From Acidobacteriota bacterium (GTDB lineage: Bacteria; Acidobacteriota; Terriglobia; Terriglobales; Acidobacteriaceae): a stretch of DNA of 46,750 bases. The DNA is taken from assembly GCA_003225055.1 (NCBI GenBank), contig QIAU01000171.1:1-46750 (forward strand), given 5' to 3'. Of this stretch, positions 30,142 to 41,953 are shown in pieces. The notes under the pieces are model-generated. The model was given only the letters and a program-made list of their open reading frames with translations, did not search any database and had not been told where the DNA came from. The translations under genes were made by a program, and so were the position numbers. The stretch's first letter is position 1, and each line of letters begins with the position of its first letter.

Positions 30142-30597
30142 TTAGGTTTTCTTCTTTTGGCTATGCTTGCCGCCAGACTCTGCACGCTTCCTGGAACGAT
30201 ACAGGTCGGAACCCCTTACTGGCGTTTGCTTCGCCGCACGAGGCAATAGCTCTCGTATGGCTAATTGCAGGAATGTAGGAACATTCCTTTTAGAGACGAA
30301 GCCGTTCACGAATTGCAACGCATCTTTGGGCAGCAGCTCATAGCCCGAGAGCATGAGAATGGGCAATTCCGGATGTGTCTTTTTGATTTCCGCAGCGACC
30401 TCCCCACCGTCCATTTCTGGCATTTCATAATCAAGCAGCACTTCATCAACGGGACAAGAGGAAAGGAGTTCAAGTCCTTGACGGCCATTGCTCGCAGTCA
30501 GAACAATGTAGCCTGAGTTTTCCAGGACCATTTTGTGTAGATTGAGCTGCCGCTCTTCATCATAGATTAGAAGGATAGTTCCCTGTCGGACGGACAC
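30142..30597 (-). CDS. Single-domain response regulator (CheY-like)
   Basis: A receiver domain with an acidic pair in ILLIYDEERQ, phosphoacceptor Asp in EVLLDYEMPEMDG, the Thr/Ser switch in LPILMLSG and a conserved Lys in NGFVSKRNVP. The last 30 residues are basic (GSDLYRSRKRAESGGKHS), with no effector domain. The start is taken as the GTG at 30597, which has AAAGGGGG at good spacing; the frame is open further upstream to 30675. No histidine kinase is adjacent, so the partner is unknown. The domain has the residues needed for phosphorylation, in contrast to the degenerate receiver at 33.7 kb. Confidence 0.85.
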   Translation of the reverse strand: MSVRQGTILLIYDEERQLNLHKMVLENSGYIVLTASNGRQGLELLSSCPVDEVLLDYEMPEMDGGEVAAEIKKTHPELPILMLSGYELLPKDALQFVNGFVSKRNVPTFLQLAIRELLPRAAKQTPVRGSDLYRSRKRAESGGKHSQKKKT

Positions 30598-31369
30598 GGC
30601 CACCCCCTTTGCGCGGAAACACAGGCCGACGTGCTTGCGCAGCGGACCGCGTCCGCGCAGGGCGCGGGGTTGCACAGATACAGTTGCACTCTGGGGGTTG
30701 CTTTTCTAAAGTCAAGGGGAAAAATGACGGACCGTATCCGCTTTGGTTGGCATAAGCTGGAGCTATTATCCACAGGCCTATGACGAAGACCAGTGCATTG
30801 TGTTGCTCTCGACGCGCGTGTCTGCCGGACGCTTAATCGCTGGCGCTTCAGCCGTCCATCCCTGGTGGGATTGGCATCTGTACAGCTGTGCAAAACCTCG
30901 GCAGAACCACGTCGAAAGCGCATATGAGACTTTGTAAAGCGGAAAGCGTTGCCGGCACAGCTTCGATAGGGTCACCAGATCCGTCGCTGCGTTAGAGTGC
31001 AGGTTTGTGGCACCATGCGCGTACCGTCGTTGTCGCCTCCCGTAGTGGAATGCCTTCTGCTCACAATGCGTCAAGCAACCTGTCGTGATACACGCTGCCG
31101 TAATCGAGGCTCAATATGCCGGCTACTTCGGTCAGCCGCCGATATTTTGCGAGCACATTCACCCCACCCTGCACTCGCAAGTCTGCCAGACGTGGAAGTA
31201 ACCGCCGAGGCCACCTAGTTGTCCAAAACCAAAGCTTGATGTCTGCTGCAAGCGAATAAATGCGGAGCTCTATCGCGACTTGAAGTCCGCCGAGATCAGC
31301 GAGTTCCTCCGGTTTCCCGTTGACTCTAGCTACTTTCCGGCGCAAAAGTCGGAATAGAACCATCGCTAA
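30598..31369. other. Region without recognisable genes between receiver and integrase remnant
   Basis: About 770 bases with overlapping frames on both strands, none with a motif I recognise. The long minus-strand frame 31061-31975 spans an integrase remnant and tRNA fragment and is judged fortuitous. Confidence 0.5.
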
Positions 31370-32129: not shown

Positions 32130-33779
32130 CTAAGGTTTCAGGAGTGATTGACCGTAGGCGACGGGAATTGCGAAATTTGATCCGCCGAATTCGCGCACCA
32201 TGGCGAAATTTATTCCTATCACTTTGCCCTGATTGTTGAAAAGCGGACCGCCCGAGCCACCTGAGCTGGTTTGGGCATCGTAGACAATCTTGTCAGCGAG
32301 CACGTCGCCGATGTGCCCCTGGGTGGTGACTGGCCTGATCAGATTGCGGCGCGCGAGTTCTTCCATCACCTGCTTCGGATCACCTTTGGACGCATTCGCG
32401 ATGGACTGGAGCGTCTCTGCGCCGGCCCGCGCCAGAATTGCATCAAGAGCGGTAGGATATCCGAGTAGTACGACCGGACCGCCACTGACCGCCGAGCGCC
32501 GGCCGTCGGCGAGGGCAATCTGTTTGATTCCCAGCCCTGAAACATTTCCCTTCACGACGGCGACGTCTGCGGCTGCTGAAATCTTCTCGGTGCTGACGGC
32601 AATGCCGCTGGTAATGCCGGGGAAATAAGCGGTCATCTCGGCGATCACGGGCTCAACCCCTTGATCGAGCATTTCCTTCAGATCGTCATTCTGCCACCAA
32701 GGCTCGGCGACGTGATGATTGGTGAGAATTCGTCCAGTGTCGGACACAAGGAAACCGGTGCCGAAAACATCCAGGTGTACTTCCGGACCATTCCCGGAGA
32801 GGCCGACCAGCGGATTGCTGTGTTCGTCGGTCTGAGGCTCGCCGCTGCTCGTCACTCCGGCATAGCGAAGTCTCAACCCGGTCGTGTGCTCGCGGAAGCC
32901 GAGCACAACATGGATGAGGCAGACGCTGGGTTCATAGGCCTGGATAATCCTCTCAGCAAACTTGCCTTCGGTCTCGATCTTCTGAAGGCGGCTTTCTACG
33001 GCTGCTAATTGGTTCTGCAAGGCAGAAGCATCTTCTGACTTGCTGGTTGCAATTTGCGATTTCAGGGTTTCGCTCTGTTTCTGGAGTTGAAGCTTCTGTG
33101 GATCGCTCGCCGGGGATGGACTGTGATCCCGCTCGTCAAGGGCGCGACGCGAGCGTTCCATCAGCCGTTGTTCCGTCAGCACGCCGCTCTGCAATCGAGT
33201 AATGGCAGCGTAGACTCGCGTATTCTGTTCCTGGGTGCGACGGTAAAAGAGCAGAAAGACCAGGGCGGCAACGATAAGCACGGCGACCGTCGCCACTCCG
33301 CCCACCCGAAGGGTCCGTCGTTCTTCGTTGACGGCTGTCACCACCTGCTGGGTAGCGTTTCGATTTTCCTCGGCAAGGCGCAGCCGCTCTCGAAATTCGT
33401 CCGCGATAGACTTATTCCGAAGTTGCGAGCGAAGCCGCGACAACAATTCATGTGGGTCGAAGGGTAGAGACAGTACATCGTCGGCCCCGAGATCCAGCCC
33501 CCGAGTGCGCTCGGCTGATCCTCCCGGAGATAGCATCACAACGCGTATGTTGTGAGTGTTTTCGGAACCTTTGATTTCAGAGAGAAGATCGCAGCAATCG
33601 AGCTGCGGCGGATTGGCACCCAGGATAACAGCGTCGGGACCGAAGGCGAGGACGGCCCTCATTCCCCCCTGATAATCGGTCGAAACCTCGTATCCCGCAT
33701 CGCTCAGAGCTGCAGCGATGTGCTTCCTGAGACTATCGTCAGACTCCACTACCAAGACTCTCTCTGTTTTGTGGTTCAT
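32130..33779 (-). CDS. Degenerate receiver domain fused to a membrane trypsin-like (HtrA/S1-type) protease
   Basis: A 549-residue fusion. Residues about 6-120 form a CheY-like receiver. It keeps the acidic pair (ESDD, 12-15) and Ser84. The phosphoacceptor Asp is Gly54 (VILGANPP instead of a LLDxxMP-like motif), and the conserved Lys is absent (LSLPFDP instead of TKPF). A transmembrane helix spans about 161-178 (VATVAVLIVAALVFLLFY). A coiled coil at about 225-275 (QLQKQSETLKSQ, NQLAAVESRLQKIE) follows. The trypsin-like domain has His356 (LTNHHV), Asp405 (AAADVAVVK) and Ser509 (SSGGSGGPLFN). The topology would put the receiver in the cytoplasm and the protease in the periplasm. No PDZ domain is present, unlike DegP. 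Its frame and ATG at 33779 are clear. Confidence 0.9.
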   Translation of the reverse strand: MNHKTERVLVVESDDSLRKHIAAALSDAGYEVSTDYQGGMRAVLAFGPDAVILGANPPQLDCCDLLSEIKGSENTHNIRVVMLSPGGSAERTRGLDLGADDVLSLPFDPHELLSRLRSQLRNKSIADEFRERLRLAEENRNATQQVVTAVNEERRTLRVGGVATVAVLIVAALVFLLFYRRTQEQNTRVYAAITRLQSGVLTEQRLMERSRRALDERDHSPSPASDPQKLQLQKQSETLKSQIATSKSEDASALQNQLAAVESRLQKIETEGKFAERIIQAYEPSVCLIHVVLGFREHTTGLRLRYAGVTSSGEPQTDEHSNPLVGLSGNGPEVHLDVFGTGFLVSDTGRILTNHHVAEPWWQNDDLKEMLDQGVEPVIAEMTAYFPGITSGIAVSTEKISAAADVAVVKGNVSGLGIKQIALADGRRSAVSGGPVVLLGYPTALDAILARAGAETLQSIANASKGDPKQVMEELARRNLIRPVTTQGHIGDVLADKIVYDAQTSSGGSGGPLFNNQGKVIGINFAMVREFGGSNFAIPVAYGQSLLKP

Positions 33780-35843: not shown

Positions 35844-36249
35844 GCTCCTTGGAGACTATTATATATACGCTAATAGCGTATATATCTGGATAGTACGCTA
35901 TTAGTGAGCGTACGATCGTCGAATTGACCTCGTGACGGTGACGGCTATGCCGCAACCTCGGATGTGCACACGTTTTGACTGTGAACTTGGTGAACTCGGA
36001 TTCCTGCTGCTAGGAAAGGGCCGCTGGATCGCGGAGGAAGGGATCAACCACAACGACACCTTCTAAATCTTGGTCTGCTTGCAAGTCCTCAGTGAGCAAG
36101 TATCTGCACGCGGCAGCTTTGGCTGCGGCCACAATCAAAGCGTCCCAGAACGAGAGCTTATAACGATCCTGAAGGTTCCATGCCCGTTCGAGAAGACCTT
36201 CGTCCACCGTTACGGGTTTCCAAGCCAAAAGATCGCGCACTTCGGACTG
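35844..36249 (-). repeat. 406-bp direct repeat, copy 1
   Basis: Near-identical to 36288-36693 (offset 444; about six differences seen by eye, two near the outer edge, three in the palindromes and one in the toxin-derived part). It contains the 3' part of the toxin gene plus the paired palindromes. A 38-bp unique spacer separates the copies. Confidence 0.9.
35861..35917. repeat. Paired palindromes in repeat copy 1
   Basis: TATATACGCT-AAT-AGCGTATATA is a perfect 10-bp-arm inverted repeat. It is followed at once by GTACGCT-N7-AGCGTAC. Both share ACGCT...AGCGT cores. The set is repeated in copy 2 (36305-36361) with compensating small changes that keep the arms paired. Confidence 0.8.
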
Positions 36250-36318
36250 ACAACGCACGTCGGCCTGCGTCGGCTCGGAGATCCAACGCTCCTTGAAGAT
36301 TATTATATATACGCTCAT
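36010..36318 (-). pseudogene. Truncated duplicate of the PIN toxin (C-terminal part only)
   Basis: The last 78 residues equal residues 67-144 of the intact toxin with a single Glu-to-Asp change (LQADQD instead of LQAEQD). The N-terminal 24 residues (MSVYIIIFKERWISEP) derive from the palindrome region of the next repeat copy. The first PIN acidic residues (Asp8, Glu49) are missing, so it cannot be an active nuclease. Confidence 0.85.
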
Positions 36319-36693
36319 AGCGTATATATCTGGATCGTACGCTATTAGTTAGCGTACGATCGTCGAATTGACCTCGTGACGGTGACGGCTATGCCGCAAC
36401 CTCGGATGTGCACACGTTTTGACTGTGAACTTGGTGAACTCGGATTCCTGCTGCTAGGAAAGGGCCGCTGGATCGCGGAGGAAGGGATCAACCACAACGA
36501 CACCTTCTAAATCTTGCTCTGCTTGCAAGTCCTCAGTGAGCAAGTATCTGCACGCGGCAGCTTTGGCTGCGGCCACAATCAAAGCGTCCCAGAACGAGAG
36601 CTTATAACGATCCTGAAGGTTCCATGCCCGTTCGAGAAGACCTTCGTCCACCGTTACGGGTTTCCAAGCCAAAAGATCGCGCACTTCGGACTG
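36288..36693 (-). repeat. 406-bp direct repeat, copy 2
   Basis: This is the copy continuous with the intact toxin gene. Its right edge falls inside the toxin codons (at Gln66-Ser67) and its left edge beyond the palindromes. Confidence 0.9.
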
Positions 36694-36888
36694 CGCCCCC
36701 TGGCGCGCGCGGGGCCATTTCTGTGTGACTTTGACGTAGAACTCTTGCAACACCTGGAAACTGATCCGGCCGCGACGGCTCTTCCACAATTCCGCGCGCC
36801 ACGCGCGCGCGGCATCTCGCTTCTTGAGGTCGGCATCGTCGAGCGCGTAGATGAAAACGTTGGTGTCAACGAAGATGGGAGCGGTCAT
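36454..36888 (-). CDS. vapC: VapC-type PIN-domain toxin
   Basis: A 144-residue PIN-domain protein. The acidic residues that bind Mg2+ are Asp8 (FVDTNVFIYALD), Glu49 (VLQEFY), Asp101 (SFWDALI) and Asp120 (LLTEDL). Such toxins are metal-dependent ribonucleases that cut tRNA or rRNA and slow growth until bound by the antitoxin. The ATG at 36888 lies inside the end of the antitoxin gene (23-base overlap), the normal vapBC arrangement. Its 3' two fifths are repeated downstream. The fold call is strong; the RNA target is unknown. Confidence 0.9.
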   Translation of the reverse strand: MTAPIFVDTNVFIYALDDADLKKRDAARAWRAELWKSRRGRISFQVLQEFYVKVTQKWPRARQGAQSEVRDLLAWKPVTVDEGLLERAWNLQDRYKLSFWDALIVAAAKAAACRYLLTEDLQAEQDLEGVVVVDPFLRDPAALS

Positions 36889-38307: not shown

Positions 38308-38772
38308 ATGGCTCTCGTCGTTCGTCCTTCCAGGATTCACGCTACCGGCTGCTATACGACTGCTCCCATCGCAGAGGGGACTTTTATTGTGGAGTACACC
38401 GGACCGCGGCTAACGGCCGAAGAAGCCGAAGCCCAATACGCCGACCAGGAGGAAACGTACCTGTTTGGTCTGGATGATGGGAAGCATGTCATCGACGGCT
38501 TCGGCGAGGCTGCTTTCATCAATCACTCCTGCGATCCCAACTGCGAGACGGACGAAATCGAAGGGCGGGTCTGGATTATCGCGGCGCGGGATATCGCCGC
38601 CGGTGAGGAACTCAGCTACGATTACAACCTCTATGACGGCGAACTGGATGACGACCAGCCTTGCCTTTGCGGCGCTACCAATTGCCGCGGAACTCTCTGG
38701 GGTGAGGACGAGCTAGCCAGGCGGGCAAGACTCGCGCAACGGGCTGCCAGTTTGACAACACCTGGATGGTAA
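38308..38772 (+). CDS. SET-domain protein, lysine methyltransferase type
   Basis: A 154-residue compact SET domain. It has the N-terminal RPSRIHATGCYTTAPIAEGT, INHSCDPNC (71-79) and the catalytic ELSYDYN (101-107). A post-SET-like Cys cluster follows, with Cys119-Leu-Cys121 and Cys126 (CLCGATNCRG). Together with Cys75 these would bind zinc near the SAM pocket. SET proteins transfer methyl groups from S-adenosylmethionine to protein lysines. Bacterial targets are mostly unknown. The ATG at 38308 gives the domain from its start. Confidence 0.9.
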   Translation: MALVVRPSRIHATGCYTTAPIAEGTFIVEYTGPRLTAEEAEAQYADQEETYLFGLDDGKHVIDGFGEAAFINHSCDPNCETDEIEGRVWIIAARDIAAGEELSYDYNLYDGELDDDQPCLCGATNCRGTLWGEDELARRARLAQRAASLTTPGW

Positions 38773-40228: not shown

Positions 40229-41953
40229 ATGACCACGGCGAAGGACTCCACTTTCGGTCGGTACGAGATTCTGGCGGAGATTGGTCGTGGAGCTATGGGT
40301 GTGGTCTACAAAGCCCGCGACCCTAAAATCAACCGTCTGGTTGCCATCAAGACCATTGCCGTCCTGGGCCGGAGTTCTGGCCAAGAACGGGAGTACCGGG
40401 AGCGATTTTTTGTCGAGGCGCAGGCTGCGGGACGGCTTTCTCATCCTTGTATCGTGACCATCTTCGATGTCGGCGAAGAACTGGACAGCATCACGCCATA
40501 CATCGTCATGGAGTATGTCGACGGCAGGTCGCTGGAAGACCTGCTCTCCGAGGAAAGCCGGAAATTTCCGGTGGAAGAGTCGCTCGCGCTGGCGCAGGAA
40601 CTAGCCGAAAGCCTAGATTACGCCCATGCCCACGGCATCGTTCATCGCGATATCAAGCCGGCCAACATCATCATTACTGAAGATGGCCACCCCAAGATAG
40701 CCGATTTCGGAATTGCGAAACTGAACCTCGCGAATTCGATCACCCAGACTCAGGCACTGGGTACTCCCGCCTATATGTCGCCTGAGCAATTGAATGGCGA
40801 TAGGGTTGACGGACGCTCTGATCTGTTCTCGTTGGGTTCTATCCTGTACACGATGCTCACCGGCTATCGCCCATTCCAAGGGGATAGCGCACTCACGGTT
40901 TCCTTCAAGGTGGTGAACCGGGAACCTGTGCCAGTTTCGGCGCTGGACTCGGAGCTGTCGCCGGACGTTGACTACATCATTTCCCGCGCCATGGCTAAAG
41001 ACGCGGCTCAGCGTTATCAAACTGGAATGGAGATGGCGTTGGACCTGCAGGATGTCCGCAACGGTTTTCTGCCGCGCAGCACGATGGGGGCGTTGCCGCC
41101 CAAAGCCGACGCCGAACCAAGCCCGTTGGACACTTGCGGGTTGAGCACCGTGAAATTTTCTTTGCCACTGGCGGCCAGACCTGCAGGCAACGAGCGGTCT
41201 GTCAAATCCCATAAAAGCAGCGCCGGTTGGCCACTTTGGCAATACGTCGCGATTGCGGTCATGGCTATTGGCGTCCTGGGAATTAGCTCTGCCGTGTTCC
41301 GCCAACCTGTATCGATCGAAATATCCAGGATCCTCAAGAGCGAACCGGCCCTTTCCTCCTCGATGGCCCCGGCTCGGAACCGAGAACCTGAGGTCCCGGT
41401 TCCGACCGCGGCTGTCCCAAGCGCGAGCATCGCTGAGTTGCCGAAGCAAGTGTCGGCTGATTCGATGGCATCACCGGTATCTATGAAAGCGGTGCCGACC
41501 TTAACCGGCCGCAAAAAGACGGCTGCCCGCAACCGTAAGGCGCTTTTCGTTGCGAAATCGGATACCAAAATTTCCGGCTTGAAGAATGGCCCTGCGCAGG
41601 TAGTCAATCCGGCAACGCCCTCCACCCTAGTCGGTTTTTCCACGCTCCACATGCGGGTGGAACATCATTTTCCTGAAGCCCAGGTTTTGATGTGGATCGA
41701 TGACAAGCTGACCTACACACACACGGTAGGTGGCGTTGTAAAAAAGCGTCTGGTAGTTTTCAAAGGAGTCCGAGGCTTCGAGTCAGAATCCTTTCGCGTC
41801 AGCGCCGGCAAGCACAGCGTCCGCGTGCGCGTGCAATCCTCCGACAGTTCTTACGATCAGACAGCGAATATCTCAGGAAGTTTCCCCGAGGATGGCGAGA
41901 GGGCTCTACGCATTGCCTGCGACAAGCACGAACTGAAGCTCGCGCTGCAGTAG
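40229..41953 (+). CDS. Membrane Ser/Thr protein kinase (PknB-like)
   Basis: A 574-residue Hanks-type kinase. The Gly loop is GRGAMG (19-24) and the ATP Lys is K41 in VAIK. The alpha-C Glu is at about 63, the catalytic loop HRDIKPAN has Asp141, and DFG has Asp159. The APE-like motif is SPEQ. The kinase ends near residue 285. A transmembrane helix lies at about 336-356 (YVAIAVMAIGVLGISSAVF). An extracytoplasmic Pro/Ala/Ser-rich linker leads to a final domain of about 110 residues (MRVEHHFPEAQVLMWIDDKL) with a beta-rich look, of unknown role. The next gene is a MerR-HTH/TPR protein 100 bases downstream. Confidence 0.93.
   Translation: MTTAKDSTFGRYEILAEIGRGAMGVVYKARDPKINRLVAIKTIAVLGRSSGQEREYRERFFVEAQAAGRLSHPCIVTIFDVGEELDSITPYIVMEYVDGRSLEDLLSEESRKFPVEESLALAQELAESLDYAHAHGIVHRDIKPANIIITEDGHPKIADFGIAKLNLANSITQTQALGTPAYMSPEQLNGDRVDGRSDLFSLGSILYTMLTGYRPFQGDSALTVSFKVVNREPVPVSALDSELSPDVDYIISRAMAKDAAQRYQTGMEMALDLQDVRNGFLPRSTMGALPPKADAEPSPLDTCGLSTVKFSLPLAARPAGNERSVKSHKSSAGWPLWQYVAIAVMAIGVLGISSAVFRQPVSIEISRILKSEPALSSSMAPARNREPEVPVPTAAVPSASIAELPKQVSADSMASPVSMKAVPTLTGRKKTAARNRKALFVAKSDTKISGLKNGPAQVVNPATPSTLVGFSTLHMRVEHHFPEAQVLMWIDDKLTYTHTVGGVVKKRLVVFKGVRGFESESFRVSAGKHSVRVRVQSSDSSYDQTANISGSFPEDGERALRIACDKHELKLALQ

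Follow-up and report, generated by a model that had tools for sequence, protein, structure and literature searches.

Membrane-anchored trypsin-like proteases of the Acidobacteriota carry degenerate receiver or FHA-like domains

A gene in the stretch of DNA analysed here (46,750 nucleotides in full, hereafter the window) encodes a protein, P0001, in which a receiver that has lost its phosphorylation residues is joined through one predicted membrane helix to a trypsin-like protease with an intact catalytic triad. The finding is better stated as a membrane protease family that is present across much of one phylum and has interchangeable degenerate signalling domains, and what is new here is that the same protease has an FHA-like domain in the receiver's place elsewhere in the phylum.

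Pseudo-receivers are an acknowledged class whose switching is largely unknown, and how they are turned on and off is named in PMC12632262 as the main question still to be answered in the field; neither 'protease' nor 'peptidase' is a word of that text. Acidobacteria are among the groups with the most aspartate-less receivers (ALRs) per genome, and the output domains of such receivers have been tabulated (PMC4395418, in its accessible part). P0001 resembles both pseudo-receivers and ALRs in matching PF00072 while key active-site residues are lost, but differs in that its output is a protease past a membrane helix. A 2008 survey lists FHA-FHA-Tryp once, in Bacteroides thetaiotaomicron, and neither 'receiver' nor 'response regulator' occurs in the accessible text of that survey (PMC2605481). 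An FHA-type domain ahead of a trypsin-type domain is the layout of some relatives of P0001, whereas P0001 bears a receiver and not FHA, and the likeness to the Bacteroides thetaiotaomicron entry is one of layout. In a literature search limited to the main text of open-access articles we recognised no paper on a receiver-membrane-trypsin protein, and a description elsewhere is possible.

Domain organisation of the receiver-protease protein

The gene is a single minus-strand frame of 549 codons plus a stop, bounded as an earlier note on this DNA had placed it, and its features are collected in Table 1.

Table 1. Features of the receiver-protease gene, in window coordinates
Feature	Coordinates	Strand	Basis
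Whole gene, 549 aa (P0001)	32130..33779	minus	ATG at 33779, stop 32130-32132; relatives align over entire frame
Pseudo-receiver domain, residues 6-122	33414..33764	minus	Pfam, alignment, (beta-alpha)5 fold in AlphaFold2 model
Putative alpha4-beta5-alpha5 face, R91 to R115 (kept: R91, D100, D101, E111, R115)	33435..33509	minus	Alignment; PhoB/BfmR pairs from accessible text of PMC4888885, PMC4511772
Vicinal cysteines C62-C63, start of alpha3	33591..33596	minus	Alignment of 64 rows
Predicted membrane helix, residues 155-183	33231..33317	minus	Hydropathy
Predicted helical / coiled-coil linker, residues 203-285	32925..33173	minus	Model helices 203-218, 227-245, 248-285; low confidence to about 230
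HtrA-like trypsin domain, residues 286-549, without PDZ	32133..32924	minus	Pfam, Foldseek, VIA-align
Catalytic His356	32712..32714	minus	Sequence, alignment
Catalytic Asp405	32565..32567	minus	Sequence, alignment
Catalytic Ser509	32253..32255	minus	Sequence, alignment

By Pfam the N-terminal domain qualifies as a receiver (Response_reg, PF00072, residues 8-116, E 1.5e-10, 41.6 bits with a cut-off of 30.2), while P0001 does not match FHA at E up to 1. AlphaFold2, run with 26 aligned relatives, gave five models with mean pLDDT values from 76.2 (the best, pTM 0.58) down to 56.3; confidence is low for residues 131-230, and the receiver is predicted as five strands alternating with five helices (block pLDDT of 72-91 for residues 1-120), with the last helix extending to residue 152. 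The Pfam match and this (beta-alpha)5 model agree with the earlier proposal that the receiver fold is kept. The best relative of solved structure by sequence is PleD (9g85, 2wb4 and 1w25; E about 1e-22 over two stretches), the pseudo-receiver of which takes part in dimerisation (PMC12632262, accessible text). The second receiver of Caulobacter PleD serves a diguanylate cyclase, however, whereas that of P0001 has a protease beyond a membrane helix as its output. A structural search with the P0001 model gave no receiver chain among the 50 matches listed, the list being filled by the protease, and the assignment of the receiver fold rests on Pfam, the sequence match to solved structures and the AlphaFold2 model.

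Residues 155-183 are hydrophobic (peak mean hydropathy 2.81), in line with the single membrane helix previously proposed to lie between the domains, and no cleavable signal peptide is apparent in the sequence ahead of the receiver. The Trypsin_2 match covers residues 340-523 (E 2.9e-18), and the protease domain is the C-terminal end of the protein, with no PDZ match at E up to 1 in Pfam. Its triad is the one that had been assigned from the single sequence, and His, Asp and Ser are present in all 120 aligned rows of all types, short paralogues included. The fold is nearest to HtrA1, DegQ and DegS delta-PDZ by Foldseek and VIA-align (VIA-align Z of 20.8 to HtrA1 and 20.2 to DegS delta-PDZ, with 22% identity to the latter over 188 residues of the same trypsin-type fold), and many of the nearest structural folds are envelope proteases. 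DegS has an N-terminal membrane helix; P0001 differs from DegS and HtrA in having a receiver and a helix ahead of its membrane segment and in what appears from the model to be a helical insert at about residues 445-480. The C-terminal PDZ of the HtrA/Deg (S1C) proteases is missing, and P0001 scores far under the NCBIfam cut-offs for HtrA/Do (NF047968, 47 versus 470 bits; TIGR02037, 38.9 versus 416.2 bits). P0001 has the layout of the Acidobacteriota FHA-like/receiver membrane protease family as we define it in this analysis: a signalling fold, one hydrophobic helix and a helical linker, ahead of a homologous protease domain with the His-Asp-Ser triad.

Loss of phosphorylation residues and retention of the dimer face

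We aligned 64 distinct receiver-bearing proteins with 15 ordinary receivers. Residues E12, S13, G54, S84 and L105 of P0001 align with D/E, D, D, T/S and K of the ordinary receivers, one of which has Tyr at the first position. The two Asp residues and the Lys are accordingly replaced by S13, G54 and L105, and the absence of the phosphoacceptor Asp and of the Lys had been recognised correctly from the window sequence. The conserved Lys is missing in all 64 proteins (Arg takes its place in 14), none of the 61 rows that have a residue at the second, metal-binding position is acidic at it, 27 of 63 retain the switch Ser/Thr, and the aligned family rows lack one residue directly after the Ser/Thr position. 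Among 62 rows the phosphoacceptor position is occupied by Gly (27), Glu (13), Asp (12), Ser (5), Asn (3), Ala (1) or Arg (1). It is thus not the case, as the earlier note had allowed, that relatives all keep a phosphorylatable Asp; the 12 that have one all carry Arg for Lys and a non-acidic second position. The canonical five-residue set occurs in none of the 61 rows in which all five positions are filled, and P0001 does not have the phosphorylatable Asp with Mg2+ acids and Lys of a canonical response regulator. Judged by these residues, the domain is a pseudo-receiver throughout its clade. The conservation of Gly54, which the earlier note had proposed to check, does not extend to the residue itself: by the same alignment Gly is typical of the window's side of the family and not of the whole family. 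The protease tree requires at least five changes between Asp and non-Asp at this position.

Nearly all of the 64 proteins still have the residues that make up the PhoB-type dimer face (R91 in 62, D100 in 62, D101 in 60, E111 in 63 and R115 in 62), and R117 is invariant. The PhoB dimer is bridged by Arg91-Glu111', the PhoB Arg115-Asp101 pair has been tested by charge swap, and Arg117-Asp103' of BfmR is the equivalent of PhoB Arg115-Asp101' (PMC4888885 and PMC4511772, accessible text). The 15 comparison receivers keep the dimer-face residues about equally well, and because ordinary receivers do so the alignment shows retention and not gain of this face, which could reflect inheritance or a constraint of the fold.

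Occurrence and conservation of the fusion

A scan of named public genomes gave 35 loci, mostly titled acidobacterial metagenome assemblies, with 40-86% identity to the window frame in the best segment. Receiver and protease are fused in one frame at 25 of these, among them L062, the receiver of which is very degenerate. As to the other ten, L040 is open at the contig end and otherwise whole, the gene is split into two or more frames at six (L043, L044, L047, which is the same as L002, L048, L050 and L064), L046 and L063 are cut by a contig end, and L065 is a short fragment. Several of the six broken relatives are split near the linker, by sequencing error or real splitting. L046 (1-1200, plus strand) is a second copy in the assembly of L031; in its frame the stretch between query residues 126 and 176 or so is skipped, and the membrane helix seems absent. 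L048 and L053 have Verrucomicrobia/Spartobacteria titles, and these outside-phylum titles are likely to reflect misbinning.

An assembly artefact or a chance fusion is ruled out by the one-frame loci, which also disposes of the possibility, raised earlier, that the fusion is unique to this assembly or a sequencing error. A chance frame is excluded because the identity extends over many genomes and the receiver has Ka/Ks values of 0.07-0.21. The corresponding values for the protease are 0.07-0.18, and these ratios, computed for 15 pairings of the window gene and for the six closest pairs without it, several of them near synonymous saturation, show that purifying selection acts on both domains.

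Matches to the protease profile are found in 18 of 298 genomes of the window's order (E below 1e-100), in 75 of 399 genomes of its class (E up to 1e-60) and in 60 of 396 genomes of the phylum (E up to 1e-20, short paralogues included). The profile (A2) scores the window gene at 481 bits, the window gene itself being a row of A2.

FHA-like relatives and short paralogues

Searching with a profile restricted to the protease domain brings up long forms in many of the phylum's families. Four of ten scanned relatives reach the Pfam FHA cut-off (L005, L096, L100 and L102) and L107 lies just below it (19.7 versus 20.7 bits). The remaining five (L099, L104, L112, L114 and L116) do not match FHA at E up to 0.01, two of them having sub-threshold PF16697 matches, and their FHA-like assignment rests on the alignment and the all-beta N-terminus of one model. 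In the model of a degenerate FHA-like member, the all-beta N-terminus is followed by long helices; a Foldseek search with it gave HtrA-type chains only among the best 50 matches listed and is uninformative on FHA, as the protease fills the list. At the residue after the invariant Gly, which we take to be the position of the FHA phosphothreonine-binding Arg, the 24 aligned FHA-like forms have Ser (10), Thr (7), Ala (3), Cys (3) or Pro (1), and none has Arg. Both forms are present in the window's class, where members with the family codes f10 and f96 score as FHA-like and those with f1, f3, f5 and f7 as receivers.

The signalling domain is evolutionarily dispensable to the protease, since 22 short paralogues are without an N-terminal signalling domain. 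One short trypsin paralogue with neither receiver nor FHA is encoded, as a second copy, in the genome of the window (L168, G000:C4:12942-13583).

An unrooted protease tree was built from 84 of the 120 rows, near copies having been dropped by hand and the ten broken or cut loci excluded earlier. The receiver-bearing proteins form one branch with a support of 100/100, which also takes in three truncated genes and L044, a frame-broken receiver gene that is wrongly labelled FHA-like on the tree, and the short paralogues form a separate branch. The FHA-like label was given by exclusion and includes L098, L099 and L103, in which FHA signal is slight or absent; rows were labelled short according to locus number, and none of these has an FHA or receiver score above 6 bits. 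The tree program warned that the long rows, L100 and the short paralogues, meet. This tree is most simply read as a receiver having once taken the place of an FHA-like domain, a direction that is suggested because the FHA-like form is the more widely spread.

Genomic neighbourhood

Clustering of neighbours over 25 and then 40 loci gave no conserved operon partner family-wide, and the widest neighbour clusters away from the gene cover six and five of the 40 loci. An orphan single-domain receiver with Asp and Lys present and Tyr at the first acidic position is encoded in the window at 30142-30675, on the same (minus) strand as the protease gene and 1.45 kb downstream of it; it is absent from the neighbours common to the 40 loci. 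A DAC/DisA_N protein of 195-197 residues (PF02457 for L036) is encoded less than 200 bases from the receiver-protease gene at three of the 40 loci (L036, 7721-8308, plus strand; L155, 5935-6519, plus strand; and L151, by cluster), in varying orientation. A few kilobases upstream of the protease gene in the window are a SET-domain gene (38308-38772) and a Ser/Thr protein kinase gene (40229-41953), both on the plus strand. The window also encodes a Subtilase (PF00082; 27109-28989, plus strand) with a C-terminal run of 'SVIWG(N/S/A)' repeats, and two minus-strand stretches in tandem (36010-36318 and 36454-36888) share a near-identical PIN-domain C-terminal part, the first being shorter and the PIN match being found for the second.

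Discussion

The explanation that we prefer, and hold with roughly even confidence, is that P0001 is a DegS-like, PDZ-less, single-pass membrane protease tuned by a dead receiver that acts as a cytoplasmic dimerisation or docking module. The N-terminal receiver, having lost phosphate acceptance, would dimerise or dock in the cytoplasm through its alpha4-beta5-alpha5 face; by way of its extended final helix, the membrane segment and the coiled coil it would determine how the HtrA-type protease oligomerises or is positioned; and the protease, on the far side of the membrane, would have its cleavage of envelope proteins tuned. A membrane-anchored HtrA-type protease that has no PDZ would need other regulation, and the recurring N-terminal feature may be a phospho-signalling fold used without phosphate chemistry. 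The parts of this explanation established at the level of sequence are the architecture, the loss of phosphorylation residues, the retention of dimer-face residues, the intact triad, the purifying selection on both domains and the FHA-like domain of relatives, while topology, dimerisation, direction of control, activity and substrate are what we infer. HtrA proteases are usually trimers, which sits awkwardly with receiver dimers, and the broken gene at six of the 35 loci, the short paralogues that do without the domain and the want of a family-wide neighbour also count against it. The earlier note had read the protein as a cytoplasmic receiver that might sense a partner and control a periplasmic protease across the membrane, an interpretation that is supported as to the architecture and its conservation and otherwise plausible but unproven. 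Two features escaped that note: other proteins of the phylum carry an FHA-like domain on this protease, and the receiver retains its PhoB-type dimer face.

Signalling might instead run from outside to inside, with the periplasmic protease domain sensing envelope stress and the cytoplasmic dead receiver serving as the output that binds a kinase, a receiver or another partner once the protease changes state. HtrA-type domains are responsive to peptides and misfolded proteins, selection acts on the receiver domain, and an intact orphan receiver lies nearby in the window; yet the triad is kept in every aligned row, so that proteolysis is probably the output, the orphan receiver is not among the neighbours common to loci, and we consider this direction unlikely. 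It is less probable still that the N-terminal domain does no more than serve as an inherited spacer or as a handle for assembly, without a signal of its own, as the Ka/Ks of the receiver is close to that of the protease and R117 and the dimer-face residues are present in nearly every protein, although the existence of short paralogues, the occupation of the same place by an FHA-like domain elsewhere and the six broken public loci, several of them split near the linker, would all be compatible with such a passive anchor.

Redox control through the vicinal cysteine pair is a fair rival to which we assign a low probability: a C62-C63 disulfide, or ligand binding there, could alter the dimer state of the receiver and hence the protease. 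Disulfide control has been described for pseudo-receiver proteins such as RitR (PMC12632262, accessible text). Of 64 rows, 51 have C62 and 45 have C63, in an alignment that is uncertain at this place for rows with inserts, and all 15 comparison receivers have Gly at the C62 position; against this, another residue is found at C62 in 12 rows and at C63 in 18 (with one gap each), and vicinal cysteines may be structural. The orientation that we have assumed, with the receiver presumably cytoplasmic and the protease beyond the membrane, bears on a further, similarly improbable reading in which both folded domains are cytoplasmic and the helix only tethers the protein or dips into the membrane. Flanking charge does not settle the orientation, since neither is preferred when K+R are counted before and after the helix (21 rows versus 20, of 61) and net charges are if anything more positive after it, and no cleavable signal peptide precedes the receiver. 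A strongly hydrophobic helix between domains (mean of peaks 2.56 over the 61 rows) normally separates compartments, however, and the envelope proteases among the nearest folds also speak for a protease outside the cytoplasm.

Returning to a dead receiver that tunes the protease from within, we suggest tentatively, as a possibility that is less likely than that explanation itself, that this family of membrane proteases is controlled from the cytoplasm by dead phospho-signalling domains, a pseudo-FHA first, replaced once by a dead receiver that keeps its dimer face. If so, the dead folds of two unrelated phospho-systems would do the same job, the inside-out control of an HtrA-type protease, and what matters would be the docking or dimer surface and not the phosphate. 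The family offers a large natural series in which some receivers have lost more of their chemistry than others (one position being D, E, G, S, N, A or R), its output is an assayable enzyme, and its relatives carry another degenerate domain in the receiver's place; inside-out control of envelope proteolysis would thereby become directly testable.
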